Source: an uncultured Nesterenkonia sp.
Lineage (GTDB): Bacteria > Actinomycetota > Actinomycetes > Actinomycetales > Micrococcaceae
Assembly (NCBI GenBank): GCA_947494195.1
Contig: CANLUC010000004.1
Span: forward strand, 248,188-312,187
Length of the DNA: 64,000 nt
Reading direction: 5' to 3'
The notes below the pieces were generated by a model. It was given only the letters and a program-made list of their open reading frames with translations, made no database searches and was not told where the DNA came from. The position numbers were made by a program, and so were the translations under genes. Of the stretch, positions 29,538 to 42,204 are shown one piece after another (position 1 is the stretch's first letter; each line of letters begins with the position of its first letter).

Positions 29538-30545
29538 TCAGTTCTCCGGCGGTTTGCGGCGGCGCAGGTAGCGTTCGAACTCCTGGGCGATCGCCTCGCC
29601 GCTGGCCTCGGGCAGGTTCGTCGTATCCGTGGCCTCTTCAAGCTGCTTGACGTAGTCGGCGATCTCCGTGTCCTCCTCAGCCAGATCGTCGACCCCGCGC
29701 TCCCAGGCCTCCGCGTCCTCCGCGACTTCGCTCTCATCCAACGTCAGACCCAGCAGATCTTCGAGCTCCCGCATGATCGCGAGCTGCGCCTTCGGTGAGG
29801 GCGCCTGCCCCACGTAATGGGGGATCGCGGCCCACAGCGACACCGCGGGCAGCCCCGCCTGGGCGGCCGTGTGCGCGAGCACCCCGACGATCCCGGTGGG
29901 GCCTTCATAGCTGGGTTCATCGATCTCGAGGATCTCCTGCAGCGCCACATCCTCGCTGGAGAGCGAGGCTGGGATCGGCCGGGTGTGCGGGACATCGGCG
30001 AGCAGCGCGCCCACCAGGACGATCCCGGAGACGTCGTTCTCCGCGGCGCGAGTGAGGATGTCTGCGGTGAAGGCCTGCCAGCGGAAGCTCGGTTCCACGC
30101 CGTGGACCAGCAGCAGGTCGACGGCGGCGCGCGCCGGCCGGGCACGGTAGATCTTCGTCGAGGGCCAGATGATCTCCCGATGACCGCCGGTGCTGCGCAC
30201 CTTGGGACGGGAGAACTGGTAGTCGTAATATCCCTCGTCCTCGACCTTGCCGATCAGCTCCGCGCCGCAGGCCTGACCGACTGCACGCACGGCGGAGGAG
30301 GCGGCCGCGCCGGCGTCGTTCCATCCCTCGAAGGCCATGACCATCACGGTGGGACGGGCCCCTGCACGCTGGTCCTCCTCACCGGTGGCCGCGGCAGACT
30401 GTGTCGCACGCAGATGATCCGCGAAGCGCTGGGCGAAGCCCTCAGGCACGGAGCTGTCTCCCGTGTGGCCATCTCCGGTGCGCCGTTCAGCTCCCGGATC
30501 AGTGCCGTCGGCGGAGGTCTCGTCCGGGGGGATCTCTTCATTCAC
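29538..30545 (-). CDS. PAC2 family protein
   Basis: 335-residue protein with the PAC2 (proteasome assembly chaperone 2-like) fold. PTVMVMAFEGWNDAGAAASSAV opens the domain at about residue 60, and LLVHGVEPSFRWQAFTADIL follows. The bacterial function is unknown. Its occurrence near pupylation genes is conserved in actinobacteria (recalled, not computed). The first 55 residues are hydrophilic and disordered-looking. The frame continues to 30710, but the GTG at 30545 has a minus-strand TAGTGT 7 nt upstream and is preferred. Confidence 0.87.
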   Translation of the reverse strand: MNEEIPPDETSADGTDPGAERRTGDGHTGDSSVPEGFAQRFADHLRATQSAAATGEEDQRAGARPTVMVMAFEGWNDAGAAASSAVRAVGQACGAELIGKVEDEGYYDYQFSRPKVRSTGGHREIIWPSTKIYRARPARAAVDLLLVHGVEPSFRWQAFTADILTRAAENDVSGIVLVGALLADVPHTRPIPASLSSEDVALQEILEIDEPSYEGPTGIVGVLAHTAAQAGLPAVSLWAAIPHYVGQAPSPKAQLAIMRELEDLLGLTLDESEVAEDAEAWERGVDDLAEEDTEIADYVKQLEEATDTTNLPEASGEAIAQEFERYLRRRKPPEN

Positions 30546-30552
30546 GCAACTC

Positions 30553-30558
30553 ACACTA
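30553..30558 (-). promoter_or_regulatory. -10 box of near-leaderless PAC2 promoter
   Basis: Minus-strand TAGTGT, 7 nt before the GTG at 30545. It shares a 52-nt divergent region with the HAD gene. Confidence 0.45.
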
Positions 30559-30584
30559 TCCCCCTGGGGAGGGCATGAGAAGCG

Positions 30585-30590
30585 TACGAT
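30585..30590 (+). promoter_or_regulatory. -10 box of near-leaderless HAD gene promoter
   Basis: TACGAT, 7 nt before the ATG at 30598. Confidence 0.5.
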
Positions 30591-30597
30591 GTTGCCC

Positions 30598-31347
30598 ATG
30601 TCTTCGACCTTCCCCTCAGCAGTGCAGACCAGGACAGAGCAGCCAGATGATGCCCCCGAGGGGGTCACCGGAGCGCTGCAGGCGGTGTTCTGGGACATGG
30701 ATGGCACCATGGTCGATACCGAGCCGTTCTGGATCGATGAGGAGCGCAGCCTGGTCGAGGCGCACGGCGGTGTCTGGACTGAGGAGCAGGCGCACAGCCT
30801 CGTCGGACAAGCCCTGACTCATAGCGCGGCCGTGCTTCAGGAGGCCGGCGTGGCGATGACCTCCCGCGAGATCATCGACCACCTCATCACCCGCGTGGCG
30901 GCTCGTGCCCAGGCCGATATGCCCTGGCGCCCCGGGGCCCGCGAGCTGCTCGCCGATCTCAACGCCGCCGGTGTGCGCTGCGCGCTGGTGACCATGAGCG
31001 AGAAGCCGCTCGCCCAAGCGGTCGTCGAGGCGCTGCCGAGCGGACAGATGGAGTTCATCGTCAGCGGTGACATGGTCTCCCGGGGCAAGCCCGATCCGGA
31101 GGCCTATCTGCAGGCCTTCCAGAAGATGGCGGCGGACCACCTCCAGCGCACCGGTGTCGAGCTGCAGATGAACCGCTGCATCGCGATCGAAGATTCGATT
31201 CCCGGAGTCTCCTCCGCGGCCGACTCGGGTCTGGTCACCATCGCCGTGCCGCACTACACGCCGATCCCCGAGGACGACCGCTGGCAGCTGCTCCCGGGTC
31301 TCAGCGGAGTCGACGCGGCCAGCCTCGAACAGCTCCTGCCCCGATGA
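30598..31347 (+). CDS. HAD-family hydrolase (phosphatase-like)
   Basis: 249-residue haloacid dehalogenase-type hydrolase, beta-phosphoglucomutase/phosphatase subclass. The nucleophile motif FWDMDGTMVDTEPFW is near residue 30, then a helical cap, motif II/III ALVTMSEKP and SRGKPDPEAYL, and motif IV IAIEDSIPGVSSAADSG. The substrate is unknown. The start at 30598 is taken because the -10 box lies just upstream. The stop overlaps the M50 gene start (ATGA). Confidence 0.88.
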   Translation: MSSTFPSAVQTRTEQPDDAPEGVTGALQAVFWDMDGTMVDTEPFWIDEERSLVEAHGGVWTEEQAHSLVGQALTHSAAVLQEAGVAMTSREIIDHLITRVAARAQADMPWRPGARELLADLNAAGVRCALVTMSEKPLAQAVVEALPSGQMEFIVSGDMVSRGKPDPEAYLQAFQKMAADHLQRTGVELQMNRCIAIEDSIPGVSSAADSGLVTIAVPHYTPIPEDDRWQLLPGLSGVDAASLEQLLPR

Positions 31348-32231: not shown

Positions 32232-33299
32232 GTGAGCACCAGCGCCTCCGGCGAGTCCCCGTCGACGACCACCTCCGGCCCCATCGGAGCACATATGCGC
32301 TCAGGACCGCTGCGCGCAGGTCAGCGGGTGCAGCTCACCGACCGCCGGGGCCGGCCCAGCACCATCACGCTGCAGCCCGGCGGAGAATGGCACACCCATC
32401 AGGGCGTGCTCCGCCACGATCTGCTCATCGGCGCCAGCGAGGGCATCCTCGTGGCCAATGACGCGGGTCATGAGTACCAGGTGCTGCGTCCGCTGCTCAA
32501 CGACTTCGTGCTCTCCATGCCCCGCGGCGCGACCGTGGTCTACCCGAAGGACTCCGCGCAGATCGTGCAGGTCGCCGACATCTTCCCGGGCGCTCGGGTG
32601 GTCGAGGCCGGCGTGGGCTCCGGCGCGCTGTCGATCTCGCTGCTGCGCGCCGTCGGGGAGAACGGGGTGCTGCACTCCTACGAGCGGCGTGCCGACTTCA
32701 AGGACATCGCGGTCGGAAACGTCGAGGCCTTCTTCGGCGAGTCCCACCCAGGCTGGGAGGTCTACCTCGGGGACATGCAGGAGGAGGTCCTCACCGTGGA
32801 GGAGCCCGGCAGCGTGGACCGGGTGGTGCTGGACATGCTCGCACCCTGGGAATGCCTGGACGCGGTGAAGACCGTCCTGGCGCCCGGGGGAGTCTGGGTC
32901 AGCTATGTGGCCTCCGTGACCCAGCTGTCCCGTCTGGCCGAGGAGATCCGCGCCTCACAGGGCTTCACCGAGCCCGAGGCCCACGAGACCATGCTGCGCA
33001 CCTGGCATTTGGACGGACTGGCCGTACGACCGGATCACCGCATGGTGGCACACACCGGATTCCTGCTCTCCGCGCGACGGCTCGCCGATGACCAGACTCC
33101 CTTGCAGCTCAAGAAGCGCGAGAAGGTCTCCACCGTGAGCGAGGAGGACCGCGCCGCATGGCCCGCCAACGATCCAGAGGCAGTCTGGGACGAGGCAAGC
33201 CTGAAGACCCGCACCGTCTCGGGGAAGAAGAGCCGCAAGGCCGCGGCCTACTCGCAGAAGATCGCCGCACAGGCCAAGGAGGTGTTCACTCGTGAGTGA
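32232..33299 (+). CDS. trmI: tRNA (adenine-58-N1)-methyltransferase TrmI
   Basis: 355-residue SAM-dependent enzyme methylating A58 in the tRNA T loop. The N-terminal beta domain (RAGQRVQLTDRRGR, GEWHTHQGVLRHDLLIG) precedes PRGATVVYPKDSAQIV and the SAM site ARVVEAGVGSGALSISLLRAVG. The C-terminal ~75 residues are a charged extension beyond the typical core. The start is taken as GTG at 32232; an internal ATG at 32295 is possible. It overlaps the arc start by 8 nt. The linkage of trmI with the pupylation locus is conserved in actinobacteria. Confidence 0.93.
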   Translation: MSTSASGESPSTTTSGPIGAHMRSGPLRAGQRVQLTDRRGRPSTITLQPGGEWHTHQGVLRHDLLIGASEGILVANDAGHEYQVLRPLLNDFVLSMPRGATVVYPKDSAQIVQVADIFPGARVVEAGVGSGALSISLLRAVGENGVLHSYERRADFKDIAVGNVEAFFGESHPGWEVYLGDMQEEVLTVEEPGSVDRVVLDMLAPWECLDAVKTVLAPGGVWVSYVASVTQLSRLAEEIRASQGFTEPEAHETMLRTWHLDGLAVRPDHRMVAHTGFLLSARRLADDQTPLQLKKREKVSTVSEEDRAAWPANDPEAVWDEASLKTRTVSGKKSRKAAAYSQKIAAQAKEVFTRE

Positions 33300-35124
33300 G
33301 CAGACAGGCAATGAGGCCCAGAAGCAGAGCCGCGAGGCCCAGCAGCTGCAGGACCGGCTGAACCAGGCCCACCGCCAGCTGGACACGCTGCGCAGCCGCG
33401 CCAAGCAGCTGGAGACCCAGCTGCAGACCGCAGGGCGGAACAACCAGCGCATGGTGGATCTGCTGGAGACCACCCGCAACGAGATCTCTGAGCTGCGCAA
33501 TGCGCTGCAGGCTGATGGACAGGCGCCCTTCACCTTCGGCACCGTGATCGGCTACCGCCCGGCCCACGAACAGGTGGCCGGCCGGGAGATCCAGGCCACC
33601 ACGGTGGCCGGGGTCGACGTCCTCCAGGCCGGGCGCAAGCTGCGCGTGAGCCTCTCCCCGCTGATCACCCCCGAGGAGCTTCAGGCCGGCGACGAGGTGC
33701 TGCTCAACGAGAACTTCACCGTCGTGGCGGTCCTGGGGGCCGAGCCGACCGGCGAGCTCGCGCGGGTCAGGGAAGTGCTGCCCGACTCCCGCCTGGTGAT
33801 CGTCTCGCGCGGCGAGGACGAACGCGTGGTGACCCTCACCGCTGCCGCCCAGGCCCAGGCCAAGGCCGAGGGGCTGCACAGCGCCCGCGTCGGCGACGCC
33901 GTGATGGTGGACCTGCGCACCGGCACCGCCACCGAGATCGTTCCCCTCTCGGAGGTCGAGGATGTGGTGCTCGAAGAGTCACCCGACGTCTCCTACTCGG
34001 ACATCGGCGGGCTCTCCGAGCAGATCGAGGCCATCCGCGACGCCGTGGAGCTGCCGTTCCTGCACGCTGACCTGTACCAGGAGCACGGTCTGCGCGCCCC
34101 CAAGGGCATCCTGCTCTACGGCCCGCCTGGCTGCGGCAAGACCATGATTGCGAAAGCCGTCGCCAGCTCCCTGGCCGGGGGCGGCAGCGGCGCACGGCCC
34201 GGGGGAGCTGAGACGAAGGTCGGGAACGCACTGTCCGACGGCGGCGATGCAGCCTCCGAGGGCCAGGGCACGGGGGCCTTCTTCCTGAACATCAAGGGCC
34301 CCGAGCTGCTGAACAAGTACGTCGGTGAGACCGAACGGCATATCCGGGTGATCTTCTCCCGCGCTCGCGAACGCGCCTCCTCGGGCCAGCCCGTGGTGGT
34401 CTTCTTCGATGAGATGGAGGCCCTGTTCCGCACGCGCGGCAGCGGCGTCTCCTCCGACGTGGAGACCACCATCGTGCCGCAGCTGCTGGCGGAGATCGAC
34501 GGCGTGGAGTCGCTGGAGAACGTGATCGTCATCGGTGCCTCCAACCGCGAAGACATGATCGACCCGGCCATCCTGAGGCCCGGCCGGCTGGATGTGAAGA
34601 TCCGTGTCCATCGACCCGGCCGCGAAGGTGCCGGAGAGATCCTCGGCATCCACCTCGGCGGGGCCGTCCCGCTGCACCCTGACCTGCTCGCCGAGCACGG
34701 CGACCGGTCCTCGGCGGTGGCGTTCCTCGTCGATTCGCTGTTGGACCGGCTCTTCCCGCAGACCCAGCAGGCGCGCCTGCGCCTGATCCATGCCGATGGA
34801 ACCTCCACTCCCTTCCAGGCCGCCGACTTCATGTCCGGGGCGGTGCTCAGCAACATCGTGGACCGGGCGAAGAAGGCCGCGATCAAGGACTTCCTGGGCT
34901 CCGGCACCGATCCGGCGCAGAAGGGCCTCACCCTGGACCACCTCTTCGACGCCGCCGAAGAGGAGCTCCGAGACCAGGAGGACCTGGTGAACACCTCGGA
35001 TCCGCAGGCCTGGTCCCGCGTCGTCGGCGCCTCGAGCTCTCCCGTGGTGCGCATCGAGCGGCCTGCCGCCGGGACTGACGGCAGCGCCGCCGGGGCCCCT
35101 GCGCAGCAGCGGGGCCGGCGATGA
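33292..35124 (+). CDS. arc: ARC/Mpa-type proteasome-associated AAA ATPase without docking tail
   Basis: 610-residue hexameric ATPase that recognises Pup through its coiled coil. The coiled coil is at residues ~10-75, tandem OB domains at ~80-230, Walker A GPPGCGKT at 277-284, Walker B VFFDE at ~370-374, and sensor/arginine-finger segments follow. Residues ~296-328 are a Gly/Ala/Ser-rich insert that I do not recall in mycobacterial Mpa. The C-terminus ends QQRGRR; the GQYL-type motif that docks Mpa on the 20S core is absent. The GTG at 33292 has a strong AAGGAGGTG. Dop overlaps its stop. Confidence 0.94.
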   Translation: MSEQTGNEAQKQSREAQQLQDRLNQAHRQLDTLRSRAKQLETQLQTAGRNNQRMVDLLETTRNEISELRNALQADGQAPFTFGTVIGYRPAHEQVAGREIQATTVAGVDVLQAGRKLRVSLSPLITPEELQAGDEVLLNENFTVVAVLGAEPTGELARVREVLPDSRLVIVSRGEDERVVTLTAAAQAQAKAEGLHSARVGDAVMVDLRTGTATEIVPLSEVEDVVLEESPDVSYSDIGGLSEQIEAIRDAVELPFLHADLYQEHGLRAPKGILLYGPPGCGKTMIAKAVASSLAGGGSGARPGGAETKVGNALSDGGDAASEGQGTGAFFLNIKGPELLNKYVGETERHIRVIFSRARERASSGQPVVVFFDEMEALFRTRGSGVSSDVETTIVPQLLAEIDGVESLENVIVIGASNREDMIDPAILRPGRLDVKIRVHRPGREGAGEILGIHLGGAVPLHPDLLAEHGDRSSAVAFLVDSLLDRLFPQTQQARLRLIHADGTSTPFQAADFMSGAVLSNIVDRAKKAAIKDFLGSGTDPAQKGLTLDHLFDAAEEELRDQEDLVNTSDPQAWSRVVGASSSPVVRIERPAAGTDGSAAGAPAQQRGRR

Positions 35125-36860
35125 GCGTGCGCAGGCTGATCGGGATGGAGACCGAGTACGGGATCCACGCCCCCGCCAACCCCAGGGCCAGCCATGTGGC
35201 GCTGTCCATCGAGCTGGTCAACGCCTATGCCGCCCACGTGACCGAGACCGGCGGGGCTGTGGCGGGCACCGAGTGGGACTATCAGTCGGAGTCCCCGCTG
35301 GTGGACGCCCGCGGCTGGGTGCTTCCGCGCTCCGCCGCCCATCCCTCGCAGCTCACCGACACCGGGGAGGCCCTGGACCACGCACGCCACGATGACGCGT
35401 TGAGCTATGCCACCGAGCAGGAGTCCGGCCAGGGGCCGGTCCGCGACGCGCTGGGGAATGTCAGTGGGGGAGACCCCAGCCCGGCCGATGTCGCAGGGGC
35501 CTACCACGCGCCGGGATCGGCGCACTGGCGCGGCGACTACTTCCAGCCGCGGGAGGGTCAGCCGCAGCTGCTGATGAACCTGGTGCTGGGCAACGGCGCA
35601 CGGTTCTATGTCGATCACGCCCACCCGGAATATTCCTCTCCCGAGGCGCTCGGAGCGCGCCGGGCGGTGCTCTATGACGTCGCCGGCGACCGGGTGGTCC
35701 GCGCTGCGGCGCAGCGGCTGAGCCGAGAGGAGCACTCCCCGCAGGTGCTGCTGTACAAGAACAACACGGACAACAAGTCCGTCTCCTACGGCGCCCATGA
35801 GAACTACCTGGTTCCGCGAGCGGTCCGGTTCGACGCATTGGTCGCCGGGCTGCTTCCGTTCTTCGCCTCTCGGCAGGTCATCTGCGGCGCCGGACGAGTC
35901 GGGATCGGCCAGACCAGCGGGGAGCCGGGGTACCAGATCTCCCAGCGCGCCGACTTCTTCGAGGAGGAGGTCGGTCTGGAGACGACCGTGCGTCGACCCA
36001 TCATCAACACCCGCGACGAGCCCCATGCGGATCAGGACCGGTTCCGGCGACTGCATGTCATCATCGGCGATGCCAATATGAGTGAATATTCTGCCTGGCT
36101 GCGGGTGGGCACCACCGCGCTGGTGCTGGACCTGATCGAGTCCGGGCGCGCTCCGGAGATCACCCTCGAGGACCCTGTGGCGGCGCTCAAGACGATCTCC
36201 CATGACCCGAGCCTGCGCGCCACGGTGCCCACCTCTCGGGGCGCGCTCACCGCCGTGGACATCCAGCACCTGTACCTGCAGGCCGCCATGGACTGGGCTC
36301 AGGAGAAGACCGGGCCCGAGTCGACCCCTGCGGTTCCCGATACCGAGACAGCAGAGGTCCTCGAGGCCTGGCAGGAGCTGCTGCGGGACCTCACCGAAGA
36401 CGTCTTCAGCGCCGCAGACCGGGTCGACTGGGTGGCGAAGCTCTCCCTGCTCGAGTCCTACCGGCGCCGCGACTCTCTGGACTGGGATGCCCCCGTCCTG
36501 GCCATGGTGGATCTGCAGTACGCCGATCTCCGTGAGGAGAAGGGGCTCTACTACAAGCTGGCGCGCGCGGGAAGGATGCGGCGGCTCTTCACCGATCAAC
36601 AGATCGCCTCGGCCGCGGAGCATCCACCCGAGGAGACCAGAGCCTGGCTTCGCGGACGCCTGGTGAGTCAACACCCCGACGTCGTCGTCGGTGCCAGCTG
36701 GGACCAGGTCCTGCTGCGGGCCGATGCCGTGGCCCCGACGGTGCGCCTGGGGCTCCCGGACCCCTATTCGGGGACCCGTGCGGCTGCGGAGAATACACTT
36801 GTCAGCGCGGAGACCAACGCGGACCTCATCACCGGACTTCAGCGTCTGCTGGGGCGATGA
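35121..36860 (+). CDS. dop: Depupylase/Pup deamidase Dop
   Basis: 579-residue carboxylate-amine ligase-fold enzyme that removes Pup from substrates and, elsewhere, deamidates Pup-Gln. METEYGIHAP opens the nucleotide site; GARFYVDHAHPEYSSPE and KNNTDNKSVSYGAHENYL are conserved Pup/ATP-binding segments. The Dop-specific loop after SESPLVDARG is unusually long here (about residues 65-147). That accounts for much of the excess over the ~500 residues I recall for mycobacterial Dop. The ATG overlaps the arc stop (ATGA). Confidence 0.94.
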   Translation: MSVRRLIGMETEYGIHAPANPRASHVALSIELVNAYAAHVTETGGAVAGTEWDYQSESPLVDARGWVLPRSAAHPSQLTDTGEALDHARHDDALSYATEQESGQGPVRDALGNVSGGDPSPADVAGAYHAPGSAHWRGDYFQPREGQPQLLMNLVLGNGARFYVDHAHPEYSSPEALGARRAVLYDVAGDRVVRAAAQRLSREEHSPQVLLYKNNTDNKSVSYGAHENYLVPRAVRFDALVAGLLPFFASRQVICGAGRVGIGQTSGEPGYQISQRADFFEEEVGLETTVRRPIINTRDEPHADQDRFRRLHVIIGDANMSEYSAWLRVGTTALVLDLIESGRAPEITLEDPVAALKTISHDPSLRATVPTSRGALTAVDIQHLYLQAAMDWAQEKTGPESTPAVPDTETAEVLEAWQELLRDLTEDVFSAADRVDWVAKLSLLESYRRRDSLDWDAPVLAMVDLQYADLREEKGLYYKLARAGRMRRLFTDQQIASAAEHPPEETRAWLRGRLVSQHPDVVVGASWDQVLLRADAVAPTVRLGLPDPYSGTRAAAENTLVSAETNADLITGLQRLLGR

Positions 36861-36888
36861 CGTCGCTCGGCCATCAAAGGAGAGAACC

Positions 36889-37089
36889 ATGTCCACTCAA
36901 CCGCAGAAGCGACCCCACGGCGGAGACGAGAACGGCGGGCCCGCCGCCGAGGCGACACCAGTGAGCGGAAGCGCCCAGGCTCAGAAGCGCGCCGGGGAGC
37001 TGGACAGCATGTTGGACGAGATCGACTCGGTGCTGGAGTCCAACGCCGAGGAGTTCGTCAAGGGGTTCGTCCAGAAGGGCGGCGAGTAG
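36889..37089 (+). CDS. pup: Prokaryotic ubiquitin-like protein Pup (ends in Glu)
   Basis: 66-residue largely disordered tag protein. The C-terminal half DSMLDEIDSVLESNAEEFVK is the helix that binds the ATPase coiled coil. It ends in GGE, so the conjugation-ready glutamate is encoded directly and deamidation by Dop is unnecessary. The ATG at 36889 has AAAGGAGAG upstream. It is 28 nt after dop and only 6 nt before pafA, with no prcB or prcA between them. Confidence 0.96.
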   Translation: MSTQPQKRPHGGDENGGPAAEATPVSGSAQAQKRAGELDSMLDEIDSVLESNAEEFVKGFVQKGGE

Positions 37090-37095
37090 CACTCC

Positions 37096-38589
37096 ATGGA
37101 GCGCCGTGTCTTCGGGGTGGAGACCGAGTTCGGGATCACCCACCAGGGTGGCGAGCACCGCGGGCTGCCGCCTGACGAGCTGGCCCGCTACATCTTCCGG
37201 CCCGTGCTGAAATGGGGTCGCAGCTCCAACGTCTTCATCCCCAATGCCTCGCGGCTCTATCTCGATGTCGGATCGCACCCCGAGTACGCCACCGCTGAAT
37301 GCGACGACCTGCTGGACCTGATCGCCTCTGATCGGGCCGGCGAGCTGATCATGCATGATCTGGCACAGCGTGCCGAGGCAGCCATGGCTGAGGACGGATT
37401 CGACGGCAGCGTCTATCTGCTCAAGAACAACGTGGACTCCCAGGGCAACTCCTATGGCAGCCACGAGAACTACATGATCCCGCGCACCACCCACTTCCGC
37501 CGGCTCTCCACGATCCTGCTGCCCTTCCTGGTGACCCGGCAGATCCTCGTCGGTGCCGGACGACTCGTGCCGGCCACTGACGAGACGCCGGCGCACTACG
37601 CGTTCTCCCAGCGCGCCGATCACATGTGGGAAGGCATCTCTTCGGCCACCACGCGCTCACGCCCGATCATCAACACTCGGGATGAGCCGCATGCCGATGC
37701 GGCGCTGCACCGCCGGCTGCATGTGATCGTCGGAGACTCGAACATGTCCGAGACCACGAGCCTGCTGCGCTACGGCGCCACCGACCTGGTGCTGCGCATG
37801 GTCGAGTCCGGCGTCCCGGTGGGAGACTTCGAGCTGGAGAACCCGATCGGGGCGATCCGCCACATCAGCCACGACATCAGCGGAACTGCCACCGTGAAGG
37901 TCCGCAACGGCCCCGAGATGACCGCTGTGGACATCCAGTCGGGTCTGCTGGACCGCGCCCGGCGCTTCGTGCGGGAGAACGGGGCGCATCATGACCAGGT
38001 GGAGCAGATCTTCGAGCTCTGGGAACGCACGCTGCAGGCGGTCGCCAGCGGAGACCACAGCTCGATCGAACGGGACATCGATTGGGCGATCAAGAAGCGC
38101 CTGCTCACCGATGTCGCCGAACGAGGCGGCCTTCCCCAGGGACATCCGAAGCTGGAGCAGCTGGACATGGCCTACCACGACGTCCACCCGCGTCGCGGGG
38201 TCTTCAATGTGCTCGCAGCGCACGGCCGGGTCAGCACCCAGCTGGAGCCGGAGCGGATCGAGCGTGCCGTCGTCGACCCGCCGAGCACCACCCGCGCGGC
38301 GCTGCGCGGTCGGTTCCTCTCCACAGCGCGCGCGCTGGGAGCCGAGCACACCGTGGACTGGGTGCACCACAAACTGGTGGACCGTCCCTTGGACGCGCTC
38401 ATGCTCAAGGATCCGCTGCTCGCGGAGGATCCGCGCCTGGACACGCTGTTGGCAAAGCTGGGTGATCGTGTCGAGACGCTGCGCGAGCAGAACCTGGCGC
38501 AGCGCCGGGAACAGGCGGTGCCGCTGGCGCTGAGTGAGCGCTATACGCTTGCCTCCCCCCGGGAGTTTGCTGAGCCTCCGCTGATCTGA
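37096..38589 (+). CDS. pafA: Pup-protein ligase PafA
   Basis: 497-residue ligase that attaches the Pup C-terminal glutamate to substrate lysines using ATP. RRVFGVETEFGITH opens the active site; SRLYLDVGSHPEYATAEC, LLKNNVDSQGNSYGSHENYM and RPIINTRDEPHADA are conserved. It lacks the Dop loop after the first strand pair, separating it from dop. The ribosome site is weak, so coupling to pup translation is likely. Confidence 0.95.
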   Translation: MERRVFGVETEFGITHQGGEHRGLPPDELARYIFRPVLKWGRSSNVFIPNASRLYLDVGSHPEYATAECDDLLDLIASDRAGELIMHDLAQRAEAAMAEDGFDGSVYLLKNNVDSQGNSYGSHENYMIPRTTHFRRLSTILLPFLVTRQILVGAGRLVPATDETPAHYAFSQRADHMWEGISSATTRSRPIINTRDEPHADAALHRRLHVIVGDSNMSETTSLLRYGATDLVLRMVESGVPVGDFELENPIGAIRHISHDISGTATVKVRNGPEMTAVDIQSGLLDRARRFVRENGAHHDQVEQIFELWERTLQAVASGDHSSIERDIDWAIKKRLLTDVAERGGLPQGHPKLEQLDMAYHDVHPRRGVFNVLAAHGRVSTQLEPERIERAVVDPPSTTRAALRGRFLSTARALGAEHTVDWVHHKLVDRPLDALMLKDPLLAEDPRLDTLLAKLGDRVETLREQNLAQRREQAVPLALSERYTLASPREFAEPPLI

Positions 38590-38668: not shown

Positions 38669-39805
38669 GTGCATCGTTCGTTCCGCCGCACCACTGTGGC
38701 ACTTTCCGTTCCGGCGGTCCTGCTGCTGTCCTCCTGCTCCACCGAGGGTCTGGGTGACACCGATGCCCTCTCCGGCGTCGAGCTGCACTACACCGAGGAG
38801 GGCGTCCCCGAGGTCATCCTGCGCAGCCCCCTGGAGATCGAGGAGGAGGCCTCCCGGGTCCTCGACCGTGGTGATGGAGAGGACCTGGACGAGGAACAGA
38901 TCCTCGAGGTGTCCCACGCCGTGGTCGACCCCGAGACCGGCGAGGTCCAGCAGGAGAGCTTCACGGAGGGCACTCCCTCCATGGTCTTCCTGCCCCAGAT
39001 GCAGGAGCAGAGCGAGTTCATCTACGACTCGCTGACCGACACAGATTTGACGGTGGGCTCCGAGATCGCCCTCTTCGAACCTGCCAACGTGGAGTCACAG
39101 GCGCCAGCCACGCTGCTGGTGCTGCGTGTGGAGGGCCAGTCCGAGGCCTACGCCTCCGGTGAGGCCCAGGAGCAGAGCGGGGACCTCCCGGAGATCGAGA
39201 GCACCGAGGGCGAGGCTCCCGAGCTTGCCGGAGAGATCACCGGCGACGCCCCCGAGGAGACCACCTCCGAGGTTCTGATCCAGGGCGACGGCGAAGAGAT
39301 CGCCGCCGACGATCAGGTCGTGGTCCGCTACACCGGCTGGAAGTACTCCGACGGCGAGCAGTTCGACTCCAACTGGCCGGCCGACGACGAGGAGGCCGAT
39401 CCGGGCCCGGCAGGATTCCCGCTGGCGAACCTGGTGCCAGGCTGGGCCGAGGGTCTCGAAGGCAAGCAGGTGGGTTCCCGGGTGCTGATGGTCATCCCAC
39501 CGGAGGCCGGCTATGGCGAGGTCGACGAGGACGCCGAAGAAGACGATCAGCACGAGCTCGCGGGGGAGACCCTGATCTTCGTGGTGGACCTTATCGCCTC
39601 CGCGGACGCGCCAGAGGCCGCTCCGGCGCAGCCGGGCGGTCAGCCTGAGCTCACCGAAGAAGAGATCCAAGAGATGATGGAAGAGATGGAGAGCCAGCAG
39701 GAGGGCGGCGCCGAGGGTGGCGAGGCTGACTCCGGCGGCGACGCTGAGAACAGCGACTCTGAGAACACCGACTCTGAAAACCAGAACGAAGAGGAGACCG
39801 AGTAA
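38669..39805 (+). CDS. FKBP-type peptidyl-prolyl isomerase lipoprotein
   Basis: 378-residue predicted lipoprotein. The signal peptide ends with LLLSSC, giving lipidated Cys23. Residues ~24-200 are an acidic, unassigned region that resembles a degenerate first FKBP domain (VFLPQMQEQSEF, LTVGSEIALF). A recognisable FKBP domain runs from ~205 to 312 (DQVVVRYTGWKYSDGEQFDSNW, GWAEGLEGKQVGSRVLMVIPP). The last ~65 residues are a Glu/Asp/Asn-rich tail. It probably helps fold exported proteins. The start is GTG with GAAGGAA. Confidence 0.88.
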   Translation: MHRSFRRTTVALSVPAVLLLSSCSTEGLGDTDALSGVELHYTEEGVPEVILRSPLEIEEEASRVLDRGDGEDLDEEQILEVSHAVVDPETGEVQQESFTEGTPSMVFLPQMQEQSEFIYDSLTDTDLTVGSEIALFEPANVESQAPATLLVLRVEGQSEAYASGEAQEQSGDLPEIESTEGEAPELAGEITGDAPEETTSEVLIQGDGEEIAADDQVVVRYTGWKYSDGEQFDSNWPADDEEADPGPAGFPLANLVPGWAEGLEGKQVGSRVLMVIPPEAGYGEVDEDAEEDDQHELAGETLIFVVDLIASADAPEAAPAQPGGQPELTEEEIQEMMEEMESQQEGGAEGGEADSGGDAENSDSENTDSENQNEEETE

Positions 39806-40209
39806 TGTCCTTCGGCCAGCGCAGCTATGACCGCACCCGCCCCGAGGTCGACTTTCCCGGAGACACCCCGCCGCAGGAGCTGGTCATCGAGGAGCTGATC
39901 TCCGGCGGCGGTCACGCCGTGGAGCCGGGGGACCAGATCTCCTGCCACTACGTGGGCGTCTCCTGGTCCACCGGCGAGGAGTTCGACGCCTCCTGGAACC
40001 GTGGTGAGACCCTTGACTTCACTGCCGGCATCGGACAGGTCATCCAGGGCTGGGACCAGGGGCTCATCGGCATGAAAGAGGGTGCTCGGCGTCGCTTCGA
40101 GATCCCTCCGCACCTGGCCTACGGTGAGCAGGGTGCTGGCGCGGCCATCGGTCCGAACGAGACCCTGATCTTCGTGGTGGACCTGGTCAGCGTCCGCAAG
40201 GCCTCCTGA
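39805..40209 (+). CDS. Cytosolic FKBP-type peptidyl-prolyl isomerase
   Basis: 134-residue single-domain FKBP. GDQISCHYVGVSWSTGEEFDASW, FTAGIGQVIQGWDQGLIGMKEGARRRFEIPP and AYGEQGAGAAIGPNETLIFVVDLV cover the whole domain, with the key aromatic pocket residues intact. There is no signal peptide. Its ATG overlaps the stop of the FKBP lipoprotein gene (TAATG), so the two isomerases are made together in different compartments. Confidence 0.93.
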   Translation: MSFGQRSYDRTRPEVDFPGDTPPQELVIEELISGGGHAVEPGDQISCHYVGVSWSTGEEFDASWNRGETLDFTAGIGQVIQGWDQGLIGMKEGARRRFEIPPHLAYGEQGAGAAIGPNETLIFVVDLVSVRKAS

Positions 40210-40218
40210 CCTGCGGCT

Positions 40219-42204
40219 GTGACGGATCCGCAGCACGCCGACACGGCCGCGCCTCTCGAGTCCACGCAGCCTGAGCCCCCCGCGGAGCCGGAGTCAGCCT
40301 CCGCTCAGGAGGAGGACGAGCTCCAGGACGTCTACGCCGACTACGGCGTAGCGCGGGCCTTCTCGCTGGCTGCCAGCATCCTCGATGCGGGCAGCGGCGG
40401 GCTGACCAAGACCGAGATCCGCGAGCGGGTGGAGCACTACCGCTCCTTCGGCGAGGGCCAGTCCGAGGACGCCTGGGAGCGGCTGTTCAGCCGGGACAAG
40501 GATCACCTGCGCGGCTGCGGGATCGCCATCGCCGAACCAGCTGCCGACCGAGACGACTACCGGTACCGCATCGACCCGGACGACTACGGACTGCCGGCGC
40601 TGCAGCTCACCGACGCCGAGAGGCTCGTGCTCACCCGTGCCACCCAGCTGTGGTCGGGAAGTCGGACGCGCTCCTGGCTGGAGCAGGCGAGCTGGGCGCT
40701 GTCCACGGAGTCCGCAGCCTCGCCTCGATTCGAGGACCAGGCCGGTGTGCTGAGCTTCAACCTGGGCAGCGACGACGAGTTCGACCGGCTCACTGAGCTC
40801 GCCGCGCTCGATGCCGGCACGGTCGTCGGTTTCGACTACACCGCTCGCGGCGCCGCCCGGCCAGAGCCTCGGCGGGTCGGGCTGCTGGACTACGCAGCCC
40901 GCGGACACTGGTACCTGATCGGTCATGACCTGGACCGCGACGCGCCTCGCGTGTTCCGGCTCGATCGTGTGCGCGGTGGCATCAGGGCGCTGACACCGCA
41001 GCCCCGGCTCACCGAGGAGCAGCGCAGCGCCGTCGCCGGAGTCGACGCCCGTGCGGCGCTCGACGGGTTCACAGGTGCCGAGGACCCCGCAGAGCTTCTC
41101 CGTGGCGTGCTCGAGGCGCACAGCGCTCCGACCCCCAGGCTTCCGCGGCTCGCTCGAGCGGCACCCGCACGTCAGGCGGACCCGGCGCACCGCAAGGTGG
41201 AGCGGGTGCTCTCCATCGCCGCGTATCTGCTCAGCTCCCCGGGCGTGCGCCCCTCGGAGCTGCTGCGCCGACACCAGATCACTCCCAAGCAGCTGCTCAA
41301 AGACCTGCTCTCCATCCAGCAGTCAGGCAGCTTCGGTCCAGGGCAGTATGGGGAGTTCATCGACGTCGACCCTGCCCCGCCGCTGAACCTTGCGCAGTTC
41401 ACCGAGGAGTACCTGCCCGCCGATGAGCCGATCACTCTCGCGATGCCCTCCGCGCGCACCGGAGACGTGCTGGCACGGCCGCTGACGCTGACCAAACCCG
41501 GAGCGCTTTCACTCTTGATCGCGCTGAACACGATCATCGGTGAGGCTGATGCGGCGCTCGACCTCTGGCTGCCGGCGGCGATCTCGCTGCGGGAGAAGAT
41601 CACCACGGTGCTTCCGGGCGGGCTGCAGCGCGCAGCCACCCAGGTCGCCGCTGGAGCGCAGGCGCAGACCCGAGAAGTTTCGGCGCTGCGCGAGGCGGTC
41701 CGGGCGGGCACCTGCCTGGAGCTCGTCTACGAGGACGCCGAGGGCACGCGCACTCGCCGGGTGGTGGAGCCCGCGCAGGTCTATATCGACGGACCGCGCA
41801 TCTACCTGCAGGCCTGGTGCCGACTGGCTCAGGCACCGCGCAACTTTCTCAGTTCGCGCATCCTCGAGCACACGGCCCTGCCCGAAGATCCGATCGGTGC
41901 CCAGGCCCGCGCGCTCGCGCAGGCTCCGGTGGAGCCTCCTCAGCCGCCGCGCGGAGCGGGCGCCCTCGACGTCGTCCTGCGCTTCTCCCCGGCAGCCGCC
42001 GGGCTCGCCGACCGGTACGCACCGCAGCGCCAGCGCACCCACGCCGATGGGGCCCGCAGCATCAGCACCTGGTTCCAGAGCCGAGAGGCGCTGATCAGGC
42101 TGTGCCTGCAGGCGGGCGGTGATGTGGCAGTGCTCGCCCCCGCCGAACTGCGCCGTGAAGTTCTTGATCGAGCCCAGGCCCAGCTGTCTGAGCTCATGGC
42201 TTGA
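40219..42204 (+). CDS. pafBC: PafBC, fused WYL-domain DNA-damage transcription activator
   Basis: 661-residue protein equal to PafB and PafC joined in one chain. Each half has a winged helix, a WYL domain and a C-terminal extension: the first half covers residues ~30-290 and the second ~325-661, separated by a Pro/Ala-rich linker. In mycobacteria PafBC activates the LexA-independent DNA-damage response. Natural fusions are known in Arthrobacter, where one was crystallised (recalled). It starts with GTG at 40219. The genomic link to pafA is conserved. Confidence 0.92.
   Translation: MTDPQHADTAAPLESTQPEPPAEPESASAQEEDELQDVYADYGVARAFSLAASILDAGSGGLTKTEIRERVEHYRSFGEGQSEDAWERLFSRDKDHLRGCGIAIAEPAADRDDYRYRIDPDDYGLPALQLTDAERLVLTRATQLWSGSRTRSWLEQASWALSTESAASPRFEDQAGVLSFNLGSDDEFDRLTELAALDAGTVVGFDYTARGAARPEPRRVGLLDYAARGHWYLIGHDLDRDAPRVFRLDRVRGGIRALTPQPRLTEEQRSAVAGVDARAALDGFTGAEDPAELLRGVLEAHSAPTPRLPRLARAAPARQADPAHRKVERVLSIAAYLLSSPGVRPSELLRRHQITPKQLLKDLLSIQQSGSFGPGQYGEFIDVDPAPPLNLAQFTEEYLPADEPITLAMPSARTGDVLARPLTLTKPGALSLLIALNTIIGEADAALDLWLPAAISLREKITTVLPGGLQRAATQVAAGAQAQTREVSALREAVRAGTCLELVYEDAEGTRTRRVVEPAQVYIDGPRIYLQAWCRLAQAPRNFLSSRILEHTALPEDPIGAQARALAQAPVEPPQPPRGAGALDVVLRFSPAAAGLADRYAPQRQRTHADGARSISTWFQSREALIRLCLQAGGDVAVLAPAELRREVLDRAQAQLSELMA

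Follow-up and report, generated by a model that had tools for sequence, protein, structure and literature searches.

The locus presented here raises the question of what pupylation does in an actinobacterium whose pupylation genes are not accompanied by genes for the proteasome core. In the window (the whole stretch of 64,000 nucleotides that was analysed, from an uncultured Nesterenkonia sp.), arc, dop, pup and pafA follow one another in the canonical order, as an earlier note had stated and as both family models and ORF coordinates confirm. The features of the region are listed below by window coordinates.

32232..33299, forward strand: methyltransferase-like gene from the ORF list (called TrmI here), upstream of arc and overlapping the arc start by 8 nt
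33292..35124, forward strand: arc, proteasomal-type AAA+ ATPase (ARC/Mpa) with a coiled coil, two OB domains and an AAA domain; end QQRGRR, not GQYL; hairpin ADGTS; pore loop YVG
35121..36860, forward strand: dop, depupylase/deamidase, its start overlapping the arc stop
36889..37089, forward strand: pup, 66 residues, C-terminus QKGGE
37090..37095, forward strand: 6-nt gap, the site of prcB-prcA in relatives
37096..38589, forward strand: pafA, Pup ligase, with its ATG at 37096
38669..39805, forward strand: FKBP-type isomerase, the downstream neighbour of pafA
39805..40209, forward strand: second FKBP-type isomerase (ORF list and Pfam)
40219..42204, forward strand: WYL regulator of the PafB-PafC type, 661 residues, an apparent fusion with two WYL stretches, HTH_PafC and WCX

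The four pupylation proteins all exceed the curated cut-offs of their family models: ARC scores 673 bits with TIGR03689 (cut-off 504.75), Dop 593.5 bits with TIGR03688 (492.3), Pup 71.3 bits with TIGR03687 (41.45) and PafA 653.7 bits with TIGR03686 (551.3), so the genes of a pupylation system are present. The C-terminus of Pup is Gly-Gly-Glu, one of the two endings (Gly-Gly-Glu/Gln) that mark such a system. The window ARC matches the mycobacterial 7px9 over its full length (E 1.9e-150), and PafA matches 4b0t (E 8.3e-138). The gene upstream of arc has only weak matches to methyltransferase families in the family-model search; it is called TrmI here, and it has a relative in nearly all of the named loci listed, with few exceptions. 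Since pup ends at 37089 and pafA starts at 37096, the 6-nt gap leaves no room for any remnant of prcBA, in agreement with what the earlier note had claimed.

A search of the rest of the genome for PrcA/PrcB, the check that had been proposed beforehand, returned no 20S gene: PF00227 (20S subunits) has no match at E <= 0.1 anywhere in the window genome (G000), an assembly of 2.78 Mb in 27 contigs that is 99.91% complete and holds the locus inside a 388-kb contig. Of 14 control genomes, E. coli included, 10 exceeded the cut-off of the same model. Among 80 PrcB-less genomes, of which 7 belong to family f19 (15 members in all) and 73 do not, it gave a match at E <= 0.1 in 5 and over cut-off in none. 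Bpa (PF10759) was likewise not found in the window genome; it is over cut-off in 17 of 23 PrcB-bearing genomes versus 0 of 19 PrcB-less ones, one of the latter having a match below the cut-off. Bpa is stated in a published account to occur in every proteasome-bearing species (PMC8223512), and Cpa is stated to co-occur with prcBA (PMC6017811). Contrary to the printed claim of co-occurrence, PF10759 is unmatched in six of the 23 PrcB-bearing genomes (G113, G141, G169, G062, G174 and G170). Near the pupylation locus, in this genome without 20S genes, the reverse-strand stretch 29538-30710 of the window weakly matches TIGR00161, a family of proteasome assembly chaperones (27 bits, against a cut-off of 199).

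The nearest named ARCs, by identity over the best segment, are those of Nesterenkonia halophila and N. ebinurensis (67%), N. sphaerica (64%) and a Micrococcus MAG (58%). The three Nesterenkonia species are the nearest named kin, lack prcBA at their locus, and are grouped with the window in the trees of neighbouring genes. The window is accordingly placed in Micrococcaceae and very probably in Nesterenkonia. In our sample of the window's family, PrcB is found in 11 genomes of four genera and is absent from 5 genomes of two genera, including the window's own. All 11 PrcB-bearing genomes have the order arc-dop-pup-prcB-prcA-pafA and an ARC ending GQYL, and the 5 PrcB-less ones have arc-dop-pup-pafA and an ARC without GQYL. 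Further named loci without prcBA at the locus are three labelled Kocuria, Arthrobacter sp. MYb229 and UM1, and the Micrococcus MAG. Loss of prcBA within Micrococcaceae is likely to have happened at least twice, because MYb229 is the sister of the prcBA-bearing Paeniglutamicibacter (SH-aLRT 99 and 100) and because a single loss, with the nine prcBA-less rows held together, is rejected on an MshC+TrmI tree (AU p 1.7e-54; a quick tree with long branches). For the coupling between the ARC tail and prcBA in this family, just 2 pairs that are independent of kinship sit on well-supported branches (sign test p 0.5), so it carries no phylogeny-corrected significance there.

Across the order, PrcB was found in 130 of 218 sampled genomes and not in 88; among the genomes that are at least 90% complete, 87 of 205 have no PrcB match. 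ARC is over cut-off in 68 of the 73 PrcB-less genomes when f19 is left out, and Pup was found in 69 of the 80 PrcB-less genomes examined. In family f19, 0 of 15 genomes have an ARC-level match, with generic AAA-level matches only, and Pup was not found in the 7 that were looked at, so the pupylation set can be lost. Two genomes of family f11, G062 and G174 (L079 and L080), keep a divergent prcBA (PrcB 226 and 199 bits), have an ARC without GQYL or the hairpin Asp and show no Bpa match; G211, a congener of G174, is without PrcB. These three genomes look like stages of proteasome loss. Two PrcB-less genomes of family f3, G179 (L021) and G151 (L023), have a second arc and pup beside a pafA, besides the ordinary locus, and no Dop was found at L023. 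In another PrcB-less genome an ARC match (G131:C2:50597-52030) is interrupted by one internal TGA.

To compare the ATPases, 55 loci from 53 of the 68 PrcB-less ARC-bearing genomes were set beside 45 loci from genomes that have PrcB and a further 80 named loci; PrcB was sought genome-wide for the sampled genomes (45 and 55 loci) and at the locus only for the named ones. The 105 ARCs with PrcB are thus the 45 plus 60 named loci with adjacent PrcB, and the 64 without it are the 55 plus 9 named loci; 11 of the 80 named loci, which show neither PrcB nor a pup-pafA stretch and whose ARCs end GQYL, are excluded from the 105. Of the 130 PrcB-bearing genomes, 45 enter this main count, and 11 more (family f6) were read separately. 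The earlier note had observed that the window ARC ends QQRGRR and has no docking motif of the GQYL type, which the translation bears out. GQYL ends 97 of the 105 ARCs with PrcB (37 of the 45 sampled loci, where 2 more end GPYL and 6 have neither, and 60 of 60 named loci) versus 0 of the 64 without.

For its second contact with the 20S particle, mycobacterial Mpa uses a hairpin whose charged Asp-Lys pair is turned towards 20S, a feature described as not conserved in C. glutamicum (PMC8755798). The 20S-facing Asp is found in 96 of the 105 ARCs with PrcB versus 8 of the 64 without; the window hairpin reads ADGTS, and that of its PrcB-bearing relatives mostly ANGDT. The Lys position separates the two sets less clearly (Lys or Arg in 58 of 105 versus 14 of 64). 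In ten of the 64 PrcB-less ARCs, namely those of the congener G071, N. sphaerica and N. ebinurensis and of 7 loci of family f9 (7 loci read of 15 genomes), the hairpin is missing and the chain stops about 50 model positions short. Both sets keep the pore loop Y/F-V-G without exception (105 of 105 with PrcB, 64 of 64 without), and in the window ARC it is intact, as are the Walker motifs. A predicted model of this protein (mean pLDDT 73, pTM 0.50, with values <50 in parts of the AAA core) has an N-terminal helix at 5-75, the OB strands, the hairpin, a last strand at 585-589 and a disordered tail at 594-610. With GQYL absent and the hairpin Asp mostly absent from the PrcB-less ARCs while the pore loop is universal, the 20S-docking face of ARC decays and the motor stays.

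The ending of Pup is less informative. That the window Pup ends GGE is correct, but it does not belong to a signature of proteasome loss, as had been proposed: Pup ends GGQ in the congener G071 and in the three named Nesterenkonia, all of which lack prcBA at the locus. The ending GGE is found at 18 of 54 PrcB-less loci versus 3 of 44 PrcB-bearing ones (Fisher 0.0014, with the loci treated without correction for kinship). Since the ending varies inside the window's own genus, GGE is not diagnostic and was rejected as a mark of the loss.

The best explanation for these observations, and in our judgement a reasonably probable one, is that the Nesterenkonia-type lineage lost prcBA and kept pupylation, together with remodelling by ARC and depupylation by Dop. 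PafA would attach Pup to lysines; with a Pup that ends in Glu, deamidation would not be needed. The ARC ring would bind Pup through its coiled coil and thread the disordered Pup N-terminus, and by pulling on the tagged protein it could remodel the target or dismantle complexes. With no 20S behind ARC the chain would be released, and Dop would take Pup off. The 2012 review reports that Mpa enhances depupylation in vitro (PMC3511204). The gene content, the lack of any 20S or Bpa match, the loss of both described 20S contacts and the intact motifs can be read from the sequences themselves; threading, remodelling and depupylation by ARC and Dop of the Nesterenkonia type are most likely, by analogy with work on other species. 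The earlier note had suggested that ARC acts on pupylated proteins for recycling or storage and not for 20S degradation. Use independent of 20S stands as the best reading (no 20S, both contacts gone, pore loop kept, no Bpa), but the route through ferritin and iron storage is weakened by the ferritin-family genes.

In C. glutamicum, ARC is described as disassembling pupylated ferritin (PMC12288473, PMC8223512), and the machinery of the window could by the same token serve iron, with ARC dismantling pupylated storage cages (ferritin or, here, Dps). The window genome does have a Dps-like gene, its sole PF00210 match (72.8 bits), for which the best family model is Dps, at a score below that model's cut-off; no ferritin-class match was found there with PF00210 and the family models. 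The congener G071 has an additional ferritin-like PF00210 protein. PF00210 goes unmatched at E <= 1e-5 in 7 of the 68 PrcB-less ARC-bearing genomes and reaches at least 95 bits in 32; these scores serve as a guide to the class of protein, which was checked by family search for three proteins, each of them below the cut-off of its best model. ARC and Pup are kept in all 7 of the proteasome-less genomes without a PF00210 match. With Dps as the better fit for the only candidate in the window genome and no candidate at all in 7 of 68 genomes, the iron-storage explanation seems unlikely for the window, and the same two observations make ferritin disassembly unlikely as the general job of proteasome-less pupylation.

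The genus f6/g11, in which PrcB is present in 15 of 15 sampled genomes, may occupy an in-between state. In none of the 15 does ARC (L101-L104 and L199-L209) end GQYL or carry Asp at the aligned hairpin position; 13 of the tails end [SP][DS]L[LVI], for example NSDLV, and 2 end otherwise. Bpa was found in 3 of 4 genomes tested, and all three proteins (L210-L212) end GNYL. By these sequences, either the group has a changed form of ARC docking, or its ARC is uncoupled and the 20S particle is left to Bpa. Against uncoupling, the NSDLV-like tail shared by 13 of 15 may itself be a docking motif in altered form. The 7 genomes without PF00210 that keep ARC and Pup, taken with a group that keeps PrcB and Bpa beside an ARC without contacts, would fit a joint proposal that pupylation has a general job needing neither 20S nor ferritin and that uncoupling of ARC from 20S can precede the loss of 20S; we offer this tentatively, as a possible but doubtful reading.

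It might also be supposed that ARC feeds another protease, for instance a Clp peptidase, through its changed C-terminus, and that pupylation still means degradation. The motor and pore loop of ARC are kept, and C-terminal tails are alike within some proteasome-less groups, such as the 7 f9 loci read. However, the tails differ between groups, and three ARCs of the Nesterenkonia type (G071, L106 and L109) are missing the hairpin as well as most of the C-terminal region, so no common new docking motif is seen. Lon as the substitute was rejected: it was unmatched at E <= 1e-100 in all 42 genomes tested, PrcB-bearing or not, and this result also speaks against the present proposal, which we consider quite improbable.

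For the pair from the window's own genus (G000-G071), pN/pS is 0.50 for ARC, 0.34 for Dop, 0.40 for Pup and 0.41 for PafA; over the four genes in six PrcB-less pairs it is 0.25-0.59. These ratios were taken on stop-to-stop frames, which include a few upstream codons, with synonymous sites partly saturated. As judged from them, the pupylation genes are under purifying selection. For ARC the ratio is 0.25-0.50 in the six PrcB-less pairs and lower, 0.10-0.35, in four PrcB-bearing pairs. The distance to an outgroup, relative to two neighbour genes, is 1.01 versus 0.73 for ARC, 0.96 versus 0.71 for PafA and 1.29 versus 1.27 for Dop in 9 prcBA-less versus 31 other Micrococcaceae loci, which are non-independent draws; for the two neighbour genes, too, the distance is the larger in prcBA-less loci (0.65 versus 0.57). 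The greater divergence of ARC and PafA is compatible both with relaxed constraint and with a new job, and greater divergence in proteasome-less species was already noted in the 2012 review (PMC3511204).

The divergence of ARC and PafA, together with the erosion of the ARC tail, the loss of a domain and the f19 genomes without ARC, could be taken to mean that the genes are a decaying remnant that persists after the loss of 20S without a selected function. Such decay is very unlikely given the pN/pS of 0.25-0.59 over four genes in six pairs, the retention of ARC in 68 of 73 PrcB-less genomes (without f19) and of Pup in 69 of 80, and the preserved Walker and pore motifs. That prcBA is present yet was missed, through an assembly gap, a plasmid or strong divergence, is almost certainly wrong: the assembly is split over 27 contigs, but its completeness of 99.91%, the contiguous locus, the absence of a PF00227 match at E <= 0.1, the unmatched Bpa, the lost 20S contacts of ARC and the absence of prcBA at the same site in three Nesterenkonia species all count against it.

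Pupylation without a proteasome is already known, and the earlier note was right to name Corynebacterium as the precedent (PMC3511204, PMC12288473). According to the 2012 review, pup lies immediately upstream of pafA in actinobacteria that lack a proteasome, and their ATPase has no docking motif (PMC3511204); the retention of dop beside a Pup that already ends in Glu and a role independent of degradation have also been published for other actinobacteria (PMC3511204; PMC8223512). As in C. glutamicum, according to the same review, the window keeps the pupylation genes and the ATPase with prcBA gone and pup directly before pafA, the ATPase has no docking motif, Pup ends in Glu and dop is kept (PMC3511204). 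In its gene layout and its ATPase the window fits the Corynebacterium type: pup adjacent to pafA, arc and dop kept, no prcBA and no docking motif. Unlike C. glutamicum, it belongs to a family whose other genera keep prcBA, and its genome has a Dps-like gene and no ferritin-class match.

The Pup locus of Micrococcus luteus, abbreviated in the legend of Fig. 2 of the source (PMC8223512), is from the same family but another genus; the locus read here is that of the Micrococcus MAG (L107), which is without prcBA and GQYL. With the mycobacterial Pup-proteasome system (Mpa/ARC with 20S) the window shares the same enzymes (ARC with 7px9, PafA with 4b0t), but has no PrcA/PrcB, GQYL, hairpin Asp or Bpa. 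The literature search found no paper joining Nesterenkonia and pupylation. What this analysis adds is the finding that ARC selectively loses its docking face, together with the ferritin count.

In the published accounts, as far as their available text goes, the role of proteasome-less pupylation rests on one species and one substrate. With no ferritin-class match in the window genome and in other such genomes, ferritin is unlikely to be the general answer. Within a single family, Nesterenkonia and its kin supply closely related pairs that differ in whether prcBA is present, and they show which surfaces of ARC disappear along with the 20S particle.
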